This document shows, piece by piece, positions 1,686-43,573 of a stretch of DNA of 64,000 nt (positions are counted from its first letter, which is position 1; each line of letters begins with the position of its first letter). The translations under genes were made by a program, and so were the position numbers. Origin of the DNA: Oscillospiraceae bacterium (GTDB lineage Bacteria; Bacillota; Clostridia; Oscillospirales; Oscillospiraceae). Location: the NCBI GenBank assembly GCA_902778275.1, contig CACYXE010000010.1:1-64000 (forward strand). The letters run 5' to 3'. The notes below the pieces were generated by a model, which was not told the DNA's origin, did not search any database, and worked only from the letters and a program-made list of their open reading frames with translations.

Positions 1686-2795
1686 TCAGCTGATCTTCAG
1701 CTCTTCCCAGAGGGTGTTCACATAGTCCAGGGTCTCGGCGTCCAGATTGCGGTAGGCGTATTCGTTGTACAGGGCGCTGAAATCCTCGATGCCGGGATAT
1801 AGGATCTCCATGGCCTCTTCGCCCAGCTCGTCGGCGTAATCCGCATCCTCATACACGAGGGAATTGGGGGAAGCGTAGTAGATATACTCGGCGTTGGCGA
1901 TGGCAGGCTCGGCGGAGAGCATGTAATTGATGAAGATCTCGGCCAGTTCCTTGTTCTGGGCAGACTTGGGGATGCACATGGCGTCTACAAAGTAGTTGGT
2001 GGGCTCGGGATAATAGAACTGCAGGTCGATGTTGTCCGCCTGGGCGTCCAGCATGATGAAGTAATCGCCTGCATAGTAGGCGCCCACAGCGGCTTCGCCG
2101 GACTCCATCATGTTGTAGATCTCGTCCATCACATAGCTTTTCACCAGGGGAGCCTGGGTCTTGAGCTCCGCCAGGGCGGCGTCCCAGCTGGCCTTGGAAC
2201 TGTCGTTCACGTCAAGGCCCAGCTTGTACTGAGCGGTGGCAAAGGCGTCGCGGGAGTTGTTGAACTGGAGGATGTTCCCGGCGTACTTGCTGTTCCACAT
2301 CAGGTCCCAGCCGCCCACGTCGCCCTCATCCACCACGTTGGCGTTGTAGATGATGCCCACGATGCCGTAGGTGTAGGGGACGGTATACTGGTTGTCCGGG
2401 TCATAGTACAGGCCGCGGAAGCCCTCATCGATATACTGATAATTGGGGATGTTGTCAAAATCCAGAGGCAGGAGCATATCCTCGGCGATCATGCGCGCGA
2501 TCATATAGTCAGAGGGGATGATCACATCATAGCTGACGGCGCCGCTGGAGATCTTGCTGTACATATCCTCATTGCTGGCGTAGGTGTCATAGTTGACCTT
2601 CAGCTTCTGGCCGTAGTTGGCCTCATACCATTTCTCAAATTCCCGGATGGTGTCGAAGGAATCCTCGGCGCCGTCGGAGATATATTCACCCCAGTTGTAC
2701 ACGTTCAGGGTGAGCGTCTTGGACGAGCCGCAGCCGCTGAGCAGAAGCGCGCAGACCAGTGCGGCAAGGACAAAGAGAGAAACGAACTTTTTCAT
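1686..2795 (-). CDS. potD: Spermidine/putrescine ABC transporter, substrate-binding lipoprotein
   Basis: A 369-residue extracytoplasmic solute-binding protein of the PotD/PotF family. The N-terminus is a lipoprotein signal with a lipobox ending in Ser-Gly-Cys at Cys22, so the mature protein should be lipid-anchored outside the membrane. Residues after ~28 (LNVYNWGEYI) are the characteristic first strand of polyamine-binding proteins. AGGAGG precedes ATG at 2793-2795, and the start overlaps the potC stop by 4 nt (ATGA). It is the last gene of potABCD. Substrate preference among putrescine, spermidine and other amines cannot be read from the sequence alone. Confidence 0.93.
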   Translation of the reverse strand: MKKFVSLFVLAALVCALLLSGCGSSKTLTLNVYNWGEYISDGAEDSFDTIREFEKWYEANYGQKLKVNYDTYASNEDMYSKISSGAVSYDVIIPSDYMIARMIAEDMLLPLDFDNIPNYQYIDEGFRGLYYDPDNQYTVPYTYGIVGIIYNANVVDEGDVGGWDLMWNSKYAGNILQFNNSRDAFATAQYKLGLDVNDSSKASWDAALAELKTQAPLVKSYVMDEIYNMMESGEAAVGAYYAGDYFIMLDAQADNIDLQFYYPEPTNYFVDAMCIPKSAQNKELAEIFINYMLSAEPAIANAEYIYYASPNSLVYEDADYADELGEEAMEILYPGIEDFSALYNEYAYRNLDAETLDYVNTLWEELKIS

Positions 2796-3634
2796 GTGGA
2801 TACAGCCTCCTTAGCTTTTGCTTTTTTGCGTTTCGCTTTCTTCACGGTCTCGGCGCTGTCGCTGTCAGACAGGTTGGAGATCAGCAGCAGGGCCAGGATC
2901 ACAAAGAAGATGATGGTTGCCAGGGCGTACATTTTGGGCGTGACCGTTTTCTTGGTCATGTTGTAGATGCGGATCGGGAGAGTCTGGAAGCCGTTGCCGG
3001 CGGTAAAATAACTGATCACGAAATCATCCAGCGAGAGGGTGAAAGCCATGATCAGCCCGGTGATGACGCCGGGCAGGATCTCCGGGATCTCCACCTTGAA
3101 GAAGGCCCGCAGGGGCGTGCAGCCCAGATCCATGGCGGCCTCCGGCAGGGATCTGTCCATCTGCTGGAGCTTGGGCAGCACCTGCAGGATCACATAGGGC
3201 AGGCAGAAGGTCACATGGGCGATCAGCATGGTGGCGAAGTTCAGACTGGTGGCCGCGCCGAAAAGCCGGCCCACGAACACGAACATCAGCATCAGCGAGA
3301 TGCCGGTGATGATATCGGGGTTGATCATGGGGATATTGGTGACCGTGTCCATCATGGTGCGCAGGTACTTGCTGCGCAGCTTGTTGATGCCCACGGCGGC
3401 GGCTGTGCCCATGACGGTGGAGATCAGCGCCGCGCTGACGGCCAGCACCAGGGTGTTGCGCACCGCGCCCAGCGTCTCCGAATCCCGAAACAGCTCCCGG
3501 TACCAATAGAGAGAGAAGTGGGAGAACACGGAAAGACTCTTGGCCAAGTTGAAGGAAAAGACCAACAGAATGGCAATGGGAGCGAAAAGGAAGAGCATGA
3601 TCAGGGCCGTGTAGACCTTGGAAATGGGTTTCAA
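2792..3634 (-). CDS. potC: Spermidine/putrescine ABC transporter permease PotC
   Basis: A 280-residue inner-membrane permease with about six transmembrane segments. The EAA-type loop (EAAMDLGCTPLRAFFKVEIP) that docks on the ATPase is near residues 170-190. The start is TTG at 3632-3634, preceded by GGAGGGGACG at good spacing. It pairs with PotB to form the membrane channel of the importer. The C-terminal tail is Lys/Arg/Ala-rich and cytoplasmic. It lies 16 nt after potB and overlaps potD by 4 nt. Confidence 0.92.
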   Translation of the reverse strand: MKPISKVYTALIMLFLFAPIAILLVFSFNLAKSLSVFSHFSLYWYRELFRDSETLGAVRNTLVLAVSAALISTVMGTAAAVGINKLRSKYLRTMMDTVTNIPMINPDIITGISLMLMFVFVGRLFGAATSLNFATMLIAHVTFCLPYVILQVLPKLQQMDRSLPEAAMDLGCTPLRAFFKVEIPEILPGVITGLIMAFTLSLDDFVISYFTAGNGFQTLPIRIYNMTKKTVTPKMYALATIIFFVILALLLISNLSDSDSAETVKKAKRKKAKAKEAVST

Positions 3635-3650: not shown

Positions 3651-4521
3651 TCAGACCGCGGCCCGCCGGTTGGCGGAGCGCTGCATCACGGCCATGCACA
3701 CCAGCAGGATGACCATGAGGATAAAGGCGATGGCGGCGGCAAAGTGCAGATTGTTGGCCACGTACTGCCCTTCAATGGCGTCGCCGATCAGGTAGAACTT
3801 GCCGTTGCCCAGCTTCTGGGAGATGTAAAAGGTGCTGATGGAAGGGATGAGCACCATGGTGATCCCGGAGAAAACACCCGGCAGGCTCAGCGGCCAGATC
3901 ACCCGGCGCAGTACGCCGAAGCTGTTGCAGCCCAGGTCCCGGGCAGCCTCCAGGAGCTTGACATCCATCTTGGCCATAACGGAGTAGATGGGCAGGATCA
4001 TGTAGGGGAAATAGTCATAGACCATGCCGATGACCACGGCCCCCTCGGTGCCGATGATGTGGATGGGCTTCAAGCCCAGAAGCCCCAGCATGCCGTTGAA
4101 GATGCCGGTGTCCTGCAGGATGGTCATCCAGGCGTAGGTGCGGATCAGGAAGTTCATCCACATGGGGATCATGATCAGGGCGATCATGATCTTCTGGGTT
4201 CGGGCCGAGGCGGTGGAGATGATGTATGCCGCCGGATAACCCATAATCAGACAGATCACCGTGGAGATGACTGCCAGCTTCAGCGAACGCATGAAGATCA
4301 GCAGGTAGGTGTGGACCTCCCGGGTTCCGGCCTCATCGGTCACATTGGAGGTGGCGGTGAAAAAGCGCCGCACATTATCCAGCGTAAAGTTGAACGCGTT
4401 GTCGGTAAAGGCATAGTAGGCCACGAAGATCAGCGGCACCACGATGAAGAGCGCTGCCCACACGGAGTAGGGCGCCAGGCAGAGCCGCTGGATCAGGCTG
4501 CCGCGCCGGGCGGCCATGTTC

Positions 4522-4532
<11 letters not shown>
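3651..4532 (-). CDS. potB: Spermidine/putrescine ABC transporter permease PotB
   Basis: A 293-residue permease with about six membrane helices and the [20 protein letters not shown] coupling loop. The open frame extends upstream to 4712, but that part lies antiphase inside potA and does not look like protein. ATG at 4530-4532, preceded by GAGGTGG, fits the family N-terminus and overlaps the end of potA by 11 nt. A second in-frame ATG at 4515-4517 is possible. It forms the channel together with PotC. Confidence 0.9.
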
Positions 4533-5676
<1,144 letters not shown>

Positions 5677-6026
5677 GCCGTACCCTCCGAAAAACAAAAT
5701 GACGTATGCAAAAGCATACGTCACCTGGAAATCCTGCAAAGCGGCCCTCATCAGAAGGCTGCTATTTTCCCAATGGGTTTAGAGTCTATATAGCAAAGAT
5801 TACTTTTACTACTCTTATTGACCATTTTACAAGTTCGTATGCATTTAAGCACTGGTTTATAGTAACCAACTAGCAAAACTTGAGCTTTTAACTCAATCAA
5901 TAAGGCAACAGAAGTTGCCACCGCACCTGCGGTTTTCGGCATTCGACCCGGCTGTCCGTGTGGCCTTGGGCGCTCATAGAGCGGCGGTCGCTATCTTGCT
6001 TCGGATAAACTCTATCCAATTGAGAC
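5677..6026 (-). promoter_or_regulatory. Long structured 5' leader of potABCD (candidate riboswitch or attenuator)
   Basis: About 350 nt separate a consensus promoter from potA, with no convincing gene between. The minus-strand RNA can form an enclosing helix (6024-6019 with 5897-5892) around hairpins at 6017-6003, 5983-5971, 5932-5921 and 5919-5904 (6 bp, TTCT loop). The closing strand 5896-5892 could instead pair with 5884-5880. A later GCATACG (5842-5836) can pair with the terminator 5' arm. This is the layout of a metabolite- or factor-sensing attenuator. I could not match it to a riboswitch class from memory, and the structure is inferred by eye. Confidence 0.55.
5691..5723 (-). terminator. 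Leader terminator (putative attenuator) in front of potA
   Basis: On the minus strand a perfect 10-bp stem (5723-5714 with 5709-5700) with a TTTT loop is followed by ATTTTGTTTTT, then the potA ribosome-binding site. A terminator between promoter and first gene implies conditional read-through. The stem 5' arm contains CGTATGC, which is also perfectly complementary to GCATACG further upstream in the leader (5842-5836). Confidence 0.7.
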
Positions 6027-6031
6027 GACTT

Positions 6032-6060
6032 ATTTTAACAGTATTCTCCAACACTGTCAA
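6032..6060 (-). promoter_or_regulatory. Sigma-A promoter of potABCD
   Basis: On the minus strand TTGACA (6060-6055) and TAAAAT (6037-6032) are separated by exactly 17 bp. Transcription should start near 6025, giving a ~350-nt leader before potA. Confidence 0.8.
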
Positions 6061-6083
6061 TAGAAAAACGAATTGTAAGCATT

Positions 6084-6833
6084 TTACTTTTCGCCCTCAT
6101 AATTCACGTCCCAGAGGGTGAGCCCGTGGGCCGGAGCGGCAGGCCCGGCGAGGGCACGGTCCCGGCTTTCCAGGGCGCTCAGCACGCTCTCCGCTGTGCG
6201 TTGGTGAAGGCCCACTTCCAGCAGCGTTCCTGTCAGGATCCGCACCATGTTATATAGAAAACCATCGCCGGTAAAGATCAGACGGACTTCCTCGCCCGCT
6301 TGGACGATGCGAAGCTCACGAAGTTCCCGGACCGGGGATTTTTTCAGCTTTTTCAGAGAACAATAGGCGGAGAAATCATGCCTGCCAAGCAGAAGCCGCG
6401 CGGCCCTCTCCATAGCCACCAGATCCAGCCGGTCGGGAAGCTGCAGCATATAGCGCCGCCGGAACACATTGGGCGCTGCGCTGTTCCAGATCCGGTACAC
6501 GTAGGTCTTGCCCGTGCAGCTGAGGCGGGCGTGAAAGCGGGGCAGGGCGGGCTCCAGCGATACGGCGCCGATATCCTCCGGCAGATGCGTGCGCAGCTCC
6601 CGCAATAGCTCCTCACAGTTTCTGCCGGTGTCCGCATGGAAAGAGCAGACCTGACGCCGGGCGTGCACGCCCGCGTCGGTCCGGCCGCTGCCGGCCAGCT
6701 CGATCTCCTGGGAAAGCAGCCGGGAGAGGAGCGCTTCCATCCGCCCCTGTATGGTGTTGCCGGTGTTGCCCTGCTTCTGCCAGCCCCGGTACCGGGTGCC
6801 GTCGTAGCAGAGCACAAGCTTGAAGTTCTGCAT
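6084..6833 (-). CDS. truA: tRNA pseudouridine(38-40) synthase
   Basis: A 249-residue TruA that isomerises uridines 38-40 in the anticodon arm of many tRNAs. The catalytic Asp53 lies in the family motif GSGRTDAGVHA (residues 48-58). The N-terminal YDGTRYRGWQKQ and the C-terminal DGFLYNMVRIL are also diagnostic. It is encoded upstream of the pot promoter on the same strand, with no obvious terminator between. It is divergent from the DUF4914 gene. Confidence 0.95.
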   Translation of the reverse strand: MQNFKLVLCYDGTRYRGWQKQGNTGNTIQGRMEALLSRLLSQEIELAGSGRTDAGVHARRQVCSFHADTGRNCEELLRELRTHLPEDIGAVSLEPALPRFHARLSCTGKTYVYRIWNSAAPNVFRRRYMLQLPDRLDLVAMERAARLLLGRHDFSAYCSLKKLKKSPVRELRELRIVQAGEEVRLIFTGDGFLYNMVRILTGTLLEVGLHQRTAESVLSALESRDRALAGPAAPAHGLTLWDVNYEGEK

Positions 6834-36605: not shown

Positions 36606-36955
36606 TGGTGGAGATGGGGGGAGTTGAACCCCCGTCCGAAAGCACTTTAACAGGAACTTCTCCGGGCGCAGACGGTCATTTCCATTCCCTCGTCCCGGCG
36701 CGGACCGTCACGCTCGAGGACTTGGTAGCTTCATGATGCATGGTATGCGCAAAGCTTAGCATACGCACGTTCACCACTCATCGACGCTCCATCCCGGGCC
36801 GTGGTACTCCCGGGTGGAACGCTCGCTAATTAAGCAGCGAGAAGAACAGTGTTATCGTTGTTCTTTAATTTATAAAGGTCGCCCATTTTAAGGATGGTAG
36901 GCGCATCCGCCCGCTATTCCTGCCTCCACACCCCCGTCGAAACCGTTACATCCCC
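36606..36955 (-). ncRNA. ssrA: Transfer-messenger RNA (tmRNA)
   Basis: About 350 nt on the minus strand. The 5' end GGGGATG (36955-36949) pairs with the 3' CATCTCC (one G-U) before A and an encoded CCA (36608-36606). The T arm GGGGGTTCAACTCCCCC and the 5' ACGGTTTCGACGG are standard tmRNA sequences. The tag reading frame ends NDNTVLLAA followed by TAA at 36832-36830, a typical Ala-Ala proteolysis tag; the resume codon is uncertain but lies ~5-8 codons before Asn-Asp-Asn. tmRNA rescues stalled ribosomes with SmpB, encoded just upstream on the same strand. Confidence 0.95.
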
Positions 36956-41859: not shown

Positions 41860-43573
41860 GGAAGAGTACCAGCGCTGGTTAGACAGCCCCGCCCTCAGTG
41901 AGCAGGAGTGGGAAGAGCTCAACGGGATCGCCGATGACGAGAAGGAGATCGAAAGCCGTTTCTTCGCTCCCCTTGAATTCGGCACGGCCGGTCTTCGCGG
42001 GACCATGAAGGTGGGTCTGCATCACATGAACGTCCATGTGATCCGCTGGGCCACCCAGGCCTTCGCCAACGTGATCGTTGCGGAGGGTCAGGAGGCTATG
42101 GACAAGGGCATCGTCATTGCCCATGACTGCCGCCTCAACGGCGTGGAGTTTTCCCAGGAAGCCGCCTGCGTCATGGCGGCAAACGGCATCAAGGTGCGGA
42201 TCTTCGACGCGCTGCGTCCCACACCCGAGCTGAGCTTTGCGGTGCGTTATTACGGCACCACCGCCGGCCTCAACATCACCGCCAGCCATAACCCCAAGGA
42301 GTACAACGGCTATAAGGTGTACTGGTCCGACGGCGCCCAGCTGCCGCCCCAGCATGCGGAAGCCATCGCCGCCCAGATGGACGCCATCGACATCTTTACC
42401 GGCTTCAAGACCTGCGATTATGCGCAAGCCGTCAAGGACGGCAAGATCCAGGTGATCGGCGAAGAGACCGATGAGGCCTTCCTGAAGGAGGTCATGGCCC
42501 AGGCCATTGACCTGGACGCCGTCAAGGCGGCCGCGGACGATCTGAAGATCGTCTATACACCCTTCCACGGCTGCGGTTATAAACTTGTCCCCGAGGCCCT
42601 GCGCCGCCTGGGCATCAAGCATCTGTATCCCGTGCCGGAGCAGATGGTCATCGACGGCAATTTCCCCACGGTGGAAAGTCCCAACCCGGAGAATCCCGAG
42701 GGCTTCTACCTGGCGGTGGATCTGGCCAAGAAAGTTGGCAGCGACCTGATCATCGGCACCGACCCCGACTCTGACCGCATCGGCACCATGGTCCGCGACG
42801 GCGACAACTACGTGACCATCACAGGCAACCAGATGGGCGTGCTGCTGCTGGACTATATCATCAAAGCCAGAAAGAGCACCGGCACCATGCCCGAAAATCC
42901 CGGCGCCGTGTCCAGCATCGTCTCCACCTCTATGGCCCGTACCGTGGCAGAGGCCAACGGTGTACATTTTGAGGACACCTTCACCGGCTTTAAGTTCATG
43001 GCCGAGCGGATTGCCTCCTGGGAGGCTGCCGGCAGCTATTCCTATATCTTCGCATTTGAAGAGAGCTATGGCTATATGCTGGGCGACTATGTGCGCGACA
43101 AGGACGCGGTCACCGCTTCCATGCTGGTGGCCGAGATGGCCGCCCATTATCAGCAGAAGGGCATGACCCTTCTGGACGCCATCAACGCCCTGTATGAGCA
43201 GTACGGCTGGTTCCAGGAGAAGACCGTGAACCTGGTCATGCCGGGGCTGGACGGCCTGCAGAAGATGAAAGCGCTGATGGACAGCCTGCGCTCCGATCCT
43301 CCCGAGGAGATCGGCGGCGTGGAGGTCATCCGCCTGCGGGACTATCTGGACGGCAGCATCGCGGTCAAGGGCCTGGGCAAGGTGGACAAGACGCCCTTCG
43401 CCGGCTCCAACGTGCTCTATTTCGAGCTGGCCGACGGCAGCAGCTACATCGTGCGCCCCTCCGGCACCGAGCCGAAGATCAAGGTCTATCTGCTGGTCCG
43501 CGGCAAGAGCAGGGAAGACTGCCTGGCCAAGGCGGACAAGTACAGGGAATTTACCGAGGCGCTCGGTAAATGA
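41846..43573 (+). CDS. Phospho-sugar mutase (phosphoglucomutase/phosphomannomutase)
   Basis: A 575-residue alpha-D-phosphohexomutase of the PgcA type. The phospho-Ser lies in TASHNPKEYNGYK (~residue 143), the Mg2+ loop is GTDPDSDRIG, the sugar-binding FAFEESYGYM loop follows, and RPSGTEPKIKVY closes domain 4. It interconverts glucose-1-phosphate and glucose-6-phosphate (or the mannose forms), feeding cell-envelope sugars. ATG at 41846 follows GAGGAGGA; the longer frame to 41774 is inside the preceding gene. Confidence 0.93.
   Translation: MRNYKEEYQRWLDSPALSEQEWEELNGIADDEKEIESRFFAPLEFGTAGLRGTMKVGLHHMNVHVIRWATQAFANVIVAEGQEAMDKGIVIAHDCRLNGVEFSQEAACVMAANGIKVRIFDALRPTPELSFAVRYYGTTAGLNITASHNPKEYNGYKVYWSDGAQLPPQHAEAIAAQMDAIDIFTGFKTCDYAQAVKDGKIQVIGEETDEAFLKEVMAQAIDLDAVKAAADDLKIVYTPFHGCGYKLVPEALRRLGIKHLYPVPEQMVIDGNFPTVESPNPENPEGFYLAVDLAKKVGSDLIIGTDPDSDRIGTMVRDGDNYVTITGNQMGVLLLDYIIKARKSTGTMPENPGAVSSIVSTSMARTVAEANGVHFEDTFTGFKFMAERIASWEAAGSYSYIFAFEESYGYMLGDYVRDKDAVTASMLVAEMAAHYQQKGMTLLDAINALYEQYGWFQEKTVNLVMPGLDGLQKMKALMDSLRSDPPEEIGGVEVIRLRDYLDGSIAVKGLGKVDKTPFAGSNVLYFELADGSSYIVRPSGTEPKIKVYLLVRGKSREDCLAKADKYREFTEALGK

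Follow-up and report, generated by a model that had tools for sequence, protein, structure and literature searches.

The locus considered here lies in the window, by which we mean the whole 64,000-nt stretch of DNA that was analysed, and it raises the question of what signal is read by a long structured leader that ends in a terminator directly before the first gene of a polyamine importer operon. A preliminary description had proposed a riboswitch or a protein-controlled attenuator tied to amines, and this proposal is supported by the conservation and covariation of the leader, by its all-polyamine gene association and by an antiterminator pairing kept in relatives. These comparative grounds make the leader RNA a strong candidate for a polyamine sensor that occurs in many related bacteria.

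Promoter, terminator and operon

The features that define the locus are as follows.

6032–6060, minus strand: sigma-70 type promoter TTGACA-17-TAAAAT (read 6060–6032), an 11/12 match with an extended −10 (TG precedes the −10)
5697–5726, minus strand: intrinsic terminator, 13 pairs and then a T run
4522–5676, minus strand: potA, spermidine/putrescine ABC transporter ATP-binding protein (NF043075, 568.5 bits, cut-off 550)
3651–4712, minus strand: potB-like permease, coordinates of the called ORF (PotB the top match, E 7.6e-56, under the curated cut-off)
2792–3634, minus strand: potC-like permease (PotC, E 2.7e-62, under the curated cut-off)
1686–2795, minus strand: potD-like substrate-binding protein (PotD, E 1.5e-44, under the curated cut-off)

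Both the consensus promoter and the leader ending in a terminator just before potA had been read correctly in the preliminary description; the terminator is followed by CGGAGGG and then by the potA ATG at 5676. A promoter matching at least 10 of the 12 consensus positions also stands upstream of the element described below in 86 of 99 dissimilar relatives, compared to 5.1 expected from shuffles. The folding energy of the leader is −120.7 kcal/mol, compared to −95.9 ± 5.3 kcal/mol in shuffles (z −4.70), and none of 100 shuffles was as low. By its sequence, the first gene can firmly be assigned to potA. The true start of the potB-like gene probably lies inside the ORF as called, and for the potC-like ORF a fused permease/binding-protein model (NF043073) scored slightly above PotC, also under its own cut-off. 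Because searches of the window's genome (84% complete) for decarboxylases and SpeE gave matches of only 25.4 and 24 bits, with no clear orthologue, the organism may depend on PotABCD for its polyamines. Elsewhere in the window, an ordinary tmRNA (RF00023, 161.7 bits) is found at 36606–36955 and an ordinary tRNA-Lys gene at 43451–43535, both on the minus strand.

A conserved element of about 230 nt

That the leader belongs to no known class, as had been stated, is right for most of its length but not for positions 5990–5936 (minus strand), where the proposed cmscan search against Rfam returned RF02440 over the full model length (58.9 bits, cut-off 37.2). Among other Rfam classes, a search of 5600–6100 at E up to 10 gave only two matches, far under their cut-offs. 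This Rfam match is one quarter of a larger element whose parts, all on the minus strand, are listed here.

5781–6013, minus strand: whole conserved element (candidate aptamer), about 230 nt, closed by helix P0; from the alignment of 92 sequences (A1), pair counts and the P0 test
5936–5990, minus strand: 5′ domain, RF02440 (SpF59 / ldcC RNA)
5990–5986/5948–5944, minus strand: P1, outer pair varying between U-A, C-G and G-C
5985–5979/5975–5969, minus strand: P2, with one C-C mismatch, closing pair varying between G-C and A-U
5965–5963/5952–5950, minus strand: P3, pairs varying between G-C and A-U and between G-C and C-G
5958–5956/5939–5937, minus strand: possible CGG:CCG pseudoknot in the 5′ domain, near-invariant
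5920–5933, minus strand: P4a hairpin ACCGC/GCGGU, an insert carried by 27 of the 92 members aligned in A1
5904–5919, minus strand: P4 hairpin GGCAAC/GUUGCC, double changes at four of six pairs
5781–5903, minus strand: 3′ domain (model R1), about 125 nt, with covariation and without an Rfam match
5903–5897/5821–5815, minus strand: P5, part of the 3′ domain
5896–5892/5884–5880, minus strand: P6, a hairpin that covaries
5878–5868/5835–5825, minus strand: P7, part of the 3′ domain, with one U-U mismatch in the window
5867–5864/5857–5854, minus strand: P8, part of the 3′ domain
5851–5849/5842–5840, minus strand: P9, part of the 3′ domain
within 5781–5903, minus strand: conserved joining strand AAGAGUAGUAAAAGU

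In the aligned relatives, UGCCGA is followed by a variable hairpin and then by the strongly conserved UUAUUGAUUGAG... UUUUAUAAGUUGGUUAC... ACUUGUGAAA..GUCAAUAAGAGUAGUAAAAGU... UUGCUAUAUAGACUCU. In none of the five sequences scanned did the 3′ domain match an Rfam model, and the R1 score of the window (127.2 bits, E 7.2e-26) is not independent, as the window sequence is one of the 62 rows of that model. The pairing of 5896–5892 with 5884–5880, which had been described as a competing one, is present as P6. Since the possible CGG:CCG pseudoknot hardly varies, covariation says nothing for or against it.

Several members of the window's genus depart from this layout. In five of them (L003, L006, L007, L015 and L083), long stretches of extra sequence separate conserved strands of the 3′ domain, which suggests that insertions are tolerated in its peripheral hairpins. 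Two others located before potA (L092 and L028) carry deletions that damage the 3′ domain, with an R1 score of 25.2 bits in L092, and in a third locus before potA (L004) a diverged 3′ domain of 66.6 bits lies about 0.3 kb past the 5′ core; these damaged domains reflect either decay or assembly error.

Compensatory changes in the paired regions

The alignments were drawn from a pool of 241 loci (123 + 118), from which four were set aside: L105, a contig end; L107 (G068), a 38.5-bit RF02440 match in which no core was found; and L150 and L179, which look like chance matches inside coding sequence. Of the remaining 237 loci, 210 were usable, having an exact CGGACAG, a 3′ strand located within 200 nt and enough flank, a filter that excluded members in which inserts were long, the core had diverged or the contig ended. 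Alignment A1 holds representatives below 86% identity and includes 92 of 97 references, L028, L030, L162, L207 and L216 being left out for deletions or insertions. Alignment A2, of the 3′ domain, holds 62 of 83 references, the other 21 having been omitted by eye as degenerate, indel-bearing or uncertain at the 3′ end.

Covariation and conservation among relatives, whose absence the preliminary description had named as grounds for abandoning its proposal, are both strong. Over the 55-pair structure, 92.5% of the cells of A1 are paired, and changes on both sides occur in 32 of the 55 pairs, compared to 15.0 ± 2.2 in shuffled alignments, with 243 double-change cells compared to 75 ± 13; neither value was reached in any of 500 shuffles. 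When partners were slid by one to three columns, pairing fell to 30–44% (at most 43.8%), a control biased toward the structure because the structure was drawn from the same sequences used for counting. The 3′ domain taken alone (A2, 62 sequences) has double changes in 12 of 31 pairs, compared to 4.2 ± 1.2 (0 of 500 shuffles). Pairing is weak in P9 (64.5% of cells in A2) and in the first three columns of P0b (66.9% in A1).

A helix enclosing the element

The element is closed by a helix, P0, formed by the strand before GACC with the strand before and including GACUCU.

6009–6013, minus strand: P0a AGAGU, with partner ACUCU at 5785–5781; supported by own versus permuted duplex energy and present in the minimum-energy fold
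5993–5999, minus strand: P0b GCAAGAU, with partner 5800–5793 and one bulge; supported by the duplex test, with its first three columns on a variable, gappy strand

Across 99 representatives, the mean duplex energy of P0 is −13.5 kcal/mol for each sequence's own partner and −11.2 ± 0.26 kcal/mol for permuted partners (z −8.9), and the median rank of the own partner is 17 of 99. When composition was controlled by subtracting the mean of dinucleotide shuffles, own partners gave −4.42 and swapped partners −2.29 to −2.47, while a distant negative-control region gave −0.22. Since swapped partners also beat shuffles, part of the pairing signal is plain sequence conservation. In the minimum-energy fold of the window, P0 extends outward to 6025–6019/5774–5768, an extension with weaker support (−1.72 compared to −0.13 to −0.89 for swapped partners). 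A local hairpin, AGAGUAG..ACUCU, found with RNAalifold, competes with P0a and is the less preferred alternative because the variable 5′ strand of P0 tracks its 3′ strand.

An enclosing helix had also been claimed in the preliminary description, and the element does have one in P0. The helix presumably meant there, CUCAAU 6024–6019 with 5897–5892, lacks covariation support and was dropped, since 5903–5892 belongs to P5 and P6, which show double changes; its identity was deduced from the one strand that had been given.

Mutually exclusive pairings at the terminator

The end of the element is connected to the terminator by a short complementary strand.

5836–5842, minus strand: antiterminator strand GCAUACG, adjacent to the P7 3′ strand; 7 bp with 5720–5714, a pairing kept across relatives

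As the preliminary description had noticed, GCATACG at 5842–5836 is perfectly complementary, over 7 bp, to 5720–5714 in the terminator's 5′ arm. Of 210 elements, 205 have a terminator-like hairpin after them, compared to 87 of 210 segments shuffled by dinucleotides and 40 of 196 regions lying 730–1000 nt further downstream; the count for the elements is 203 of 210 when the strand at the 3′ side of P7 is required as well. The criterion is a loose one, as 41% of shuffled segments pass it, and a few of the terminator picks (L058, L085 and L239) look like coding sequence. The duplex between the strand at the 3′ side of P7 and the terminator 5′ arm has a mean energy of −13.2 kcal/mol for own partners and −11.1 ± 0.24 kcal/mol for permuted partners (z −8.5, 93 representatives, including L118, L205 and L224, in which the antiterminator strand looks misplaced). 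Dropping three loci on a crude motif check (L002, L018 and L207) left 90 representatives and a z of −8.1. With composition controlled, own partners gave −3.26 and swapped partners −1.31 to −2.04; the median rank of the own partner is 28 of 93. Among loci scored singly, the antiterminator was better than shuffles at fractions of 0.018 to 0.09 in L273, L276, L277, L278, L280 and L129 and no better than shuffles in L272 and L279; L274, L275 and L185 were not scorable.

In the leader of the window, the antiterminator form is predicted to be less stable than the P7 form by 5.9 kcal/mol when the terminator 5′ arm has just been made, by 7.8 kcal/mol midway and by 18.3 kcal/mol at full length. Because it is less stable throughout, the default of the window leader in this energy model would be OFF even without ligand. 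Judged by comparison across relatives, the mutually exclusive pairings appear to constitute an expression platform; the energies computed for the window favour the terminator form. The antiterminator strand adjoins and overlaps P7 and P9, so that the folded element would free the terminator and, if a ligand stabilises the fold, the device would be an OFF switch.

Taken together, the leader probably controls transcription in cis, as an attenuator of the riboswitch type that shuts polyamine genes off at high polyamine levels. A transcript from the promoter at 6060–6032 would begin with the P0-closed RNA of about 230 nt, consisting of the RF02440 domain and the 3′ domain of about 125 nt, and the strand at the 3′ side of P7 could have either of two partners, one within the folded domain and one in the terminator 5′ arm ahead of potA. 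Ligand would stabilise the fold, P7 and P9 would hold the strand, the terminator would form and transcription would stop; without ligand, the strand would pair with the terminator arm and RNA polymerase would read into potABCD.

Distribution of the element

RF02440 was found in 63 of the 99 genomes of the relatives search: the window's genus accounts for 55 of these (out of 61, counting the window's own genome) and the rest of the order for 8 (out of 38). Searches of larger genome sets found it in 47 genomes out of 393 in the window's class, 18 out of 398 in the phylum and 24 out of 299 in the class of G782, with one match per genome listed. Judged from named look-alikes, the window's class is taken as Clostridia and that of G782 as Bacilli. 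A pattern scan of named genomes gave at least 118 loci, including the two apparent chance matches, and among the pattern matches listed are Paenibacillus, Bacillus, Neobacillus, Acidaminococcus, Phascolarctobacterium, Blautia and a Spirochaetes MAG (L185), in which the 3′ domain is marginal (22.5 bits).

The 3′-domain model, R1, identified 55 genomes among the 393 of the window's class and 30 among the 299 of the class of G782; these include every genome found with RF02440, 47 of 47 in the first class and 24 of 24 in the second. The first agreement is not independent, as at least 20 of the 47 genomes gave a row of A2 by locus; none of the 24 did so, and contigs of the same species among the named genomes are possible. 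Fourteen genomes were found by R1 only. In all of them polyamine genes come after the element, immediately in 13 and at a distance of 2.3 kb in the other. By eye, the core is still recognisable in G972, G1015 and G1145, the 5′ domain is diverged in L273, L275, L276 and L278, and no 5′ domain is recognisable in L274, L277, L279 and L280, which precede SpeD or decarboxylase operons; cmscan at E up to 1 found no RF02440 in L277 and L280. These four loci suggest that the part modelled in Rfam is dispensable. In a further locus, L272 (family f212), whose genome we guess to be a Streptococcus, a weak RF02440 match of 39.8 bits and a 3′ domain of 53.8 bits stand before a decarboxylase.

In three genomes (G1005, G942 and G704; loci L298, L299 and L300), the RF02440 domain is replaced by a stretch common to all three, AACAGAUUUGA.GU.GUA..GGGGCU..CGCGCCCAUUGAAGAGAU, followed by the 3′ domain and then by decarboxylase-SpeE-SpeB genes. 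These are perhaps a subclass with another ligand or a different accessory domain. Since some members have no recognisable 5′ domain, the 3′ domain with P0 is probably the core sensor.

Polyamine genes downstream of the element

After collapsing 266 loci to the 241 with distinct first 200 nt, among which near-identical loci remain, a polyamine uptake or synthesis gene was found downstream in all 233 loci with enough downstream DNA. The first downstream match was PotA in 86, PotB in 1, SpeD in 57, a decarboxylase in 55 and a carboxynorspermidine synthase in 34, and the eight loci without a match have at most 267 nt of downstream sequence. The match starts within about 700 nt in 232 of the 233, the exception being L275 at 2.3 kb. 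These assignments come from blastx against nine polyamine reference proteins, which a short unrelated intervening ORF would escape, and the decarboxylase and carboxynorspermidine-synthase names are by best match, as representatives fall under the NCBIfam curated cut-offs. In a tally of first ORFs covering 121 of 123 loci (L105 and L107 left out), 62 were PotA, 27 SpeD, 20 decarboxylase, 9 carboxynorspermidine synthase and 3 others, namely a small ORF before potA in L007 and L076 and PotB called first in L014. The ORF between the element and potA in L076 encodes 130 aa and, we presume, resembles a PII-type protein.

The ligand would most likely be spermidine or a close relative, as this is what cells obtain through PotABCD uptake, through the SpeD/SpeE route and through the carboxynorspermidine-type route alike.

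Alternative readings of the leader

The same RNA might be an attenuator that responds to a bound regulatory protein and not to a small molecule, as the terminator/antiterminator wiring is silent on what stabilises the fold and the element is large. The near-invariant unpaired stretches and the complex multi-helix fold kept across two classes are more typical of a riboswitch aptamer, and we regard a protein sensor as unlikely. A riboswitch that senses some non-polyamine compound, such as agmatine, arginine, decarboxylated SAM or MTA, is a still weaker prospect: such compounds are handled by the decarboxylase and SpeD operons, whereas the PotABCD loci, including that of the window, share only polyamine supply with the other loci. 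Sensing of a precursor would also make little sense in the window's genome, given the lack of a clear decarboxylase or SpeE orthologue in the 84% of it that is covered.

Rfam gives the type of RF02440 as 'Gene; sRNA' and F59 is counted among pneumococcal sRNAs, and a terminated leader would itself resemble an sRNA in RNA-seq. In all 233 testable loci, the element nevertheless has a cis position, preceding polyamine genes on their own strand, and its end is connected to a terminator located ahead of the gene, which makes a trans-acting small RNA very improbable. We give equally little credit to the absence of any specific sensor, with polyamines, which bind RNA non-specifically (PMC10853860), acting by general RNA binding or the structure serving as a stability element; sequence conservation and the exclusive association with polyamine genes speak against this. 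Next to no weight can be given to a ribosome-mediated leader-peptide attenuator starting at the AUG of AAUGCCGA, since its 63-aa ORF (5942–5751), although open in the window and reminiscent of the translated leader ORF that controls Salmonella speF (PMC6386406), has an unconserved start codon, with AUG at that site in 33 of 92 aligned members and ACUG, AACG or AAAG in most others, and this one ORF was rejected.

The riboswitch-type attenuator is thus the reading we carry forward. In its broadest form, to which we assign about even chances, it would represent a second, widespread class of polyamine riboswitch unrelated to SAM-I, in which the P0-closed 3′ domain is the sensor and RF02440 is a detachable module, lacked or replaced in some members and possibly the second sensor of a two-part device. 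The R1 element stands upstream of polyamine genes wherever this was checked, and complete, testable constructs are available.

Comparison with known systems

Other leaders of polyamine genes resemble this one in part. The Salmonella speF leader with orf34 is also a case of leader-based control of a polyamine gene, but it acts via translation of a short ORF (PMC6386406), and the candidate ORF in the window leader is unconserved. The odc1, speF and potE motifs are likewise RNA elements preceding polyamine genes, with the speF motif found in alphaproteobacteria and the potE motif in Veillonella (PMC8632094, PMC11477304); cmscan gave no match to them in the window, as far as Rfam models them, and no covariance-model match to a T-box. 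In Borrelia, excess spermidine leads to truncated potABCD transcripts and less importer mRNA, the same direction as proposed here, but the transcripts end within the potB ORF and the spermidine concentration at which the effect appeared was 10 mM (PMC10319736). The passages of that paper covered here describe no leader element of this kind; the two systems are set apart by description and not by sequence.

The validated spermidine riboswitch is a variant of SAM-I that acts as a terminator/antiterminator OFF switch and, like the present element, precedes polyamine genes, including ldcC of Trichococcus ilyis (PMC10853860). Its architecture is one of four stems, whereas the fold and the conserved bases of the window leader differ, and the window leader has no SAM-I match even at E 10.

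As far as the literature search tells, what is new is the layout of the complete element, its 3′ domain and the wiring of the switch: the titles and passages covered, mostly from outside the subscription literature, describe neither this 3′ domain nor a comparable cis switch. The existence of the motif is not new, as the Rfam name ldcC RNA implies that it had been catalogued earlier. We take the name 'ldcC motif' to come from the 2017 list of 224 candidate RNAs, and a cis role for the motif may already have been published, for example in that list.

RF02440 itself offers the closest likeness, with its full-model match in the window and its position upstream of polyamine genes; the difference is that Rfam models 54 nt as an sRNA, and here these form the 5′ quarter of a cis element of about 230 nt. 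In pneumococcus, F59 (= srn235 = SN20; alias srn235 also in PMC12323649) is located between SP0915 and SP0916 (PMC3395615), SP_0916 being an arginine decarboxylase (PMC7531197), and it is listed among sRNAs with a lung phenotype (PMC4387999). The present comparison suggests that RF02440, catalogued as an sRNA, is one piece of a cis switch, with consequences for the interpretation of the pneumococcal F59 data.
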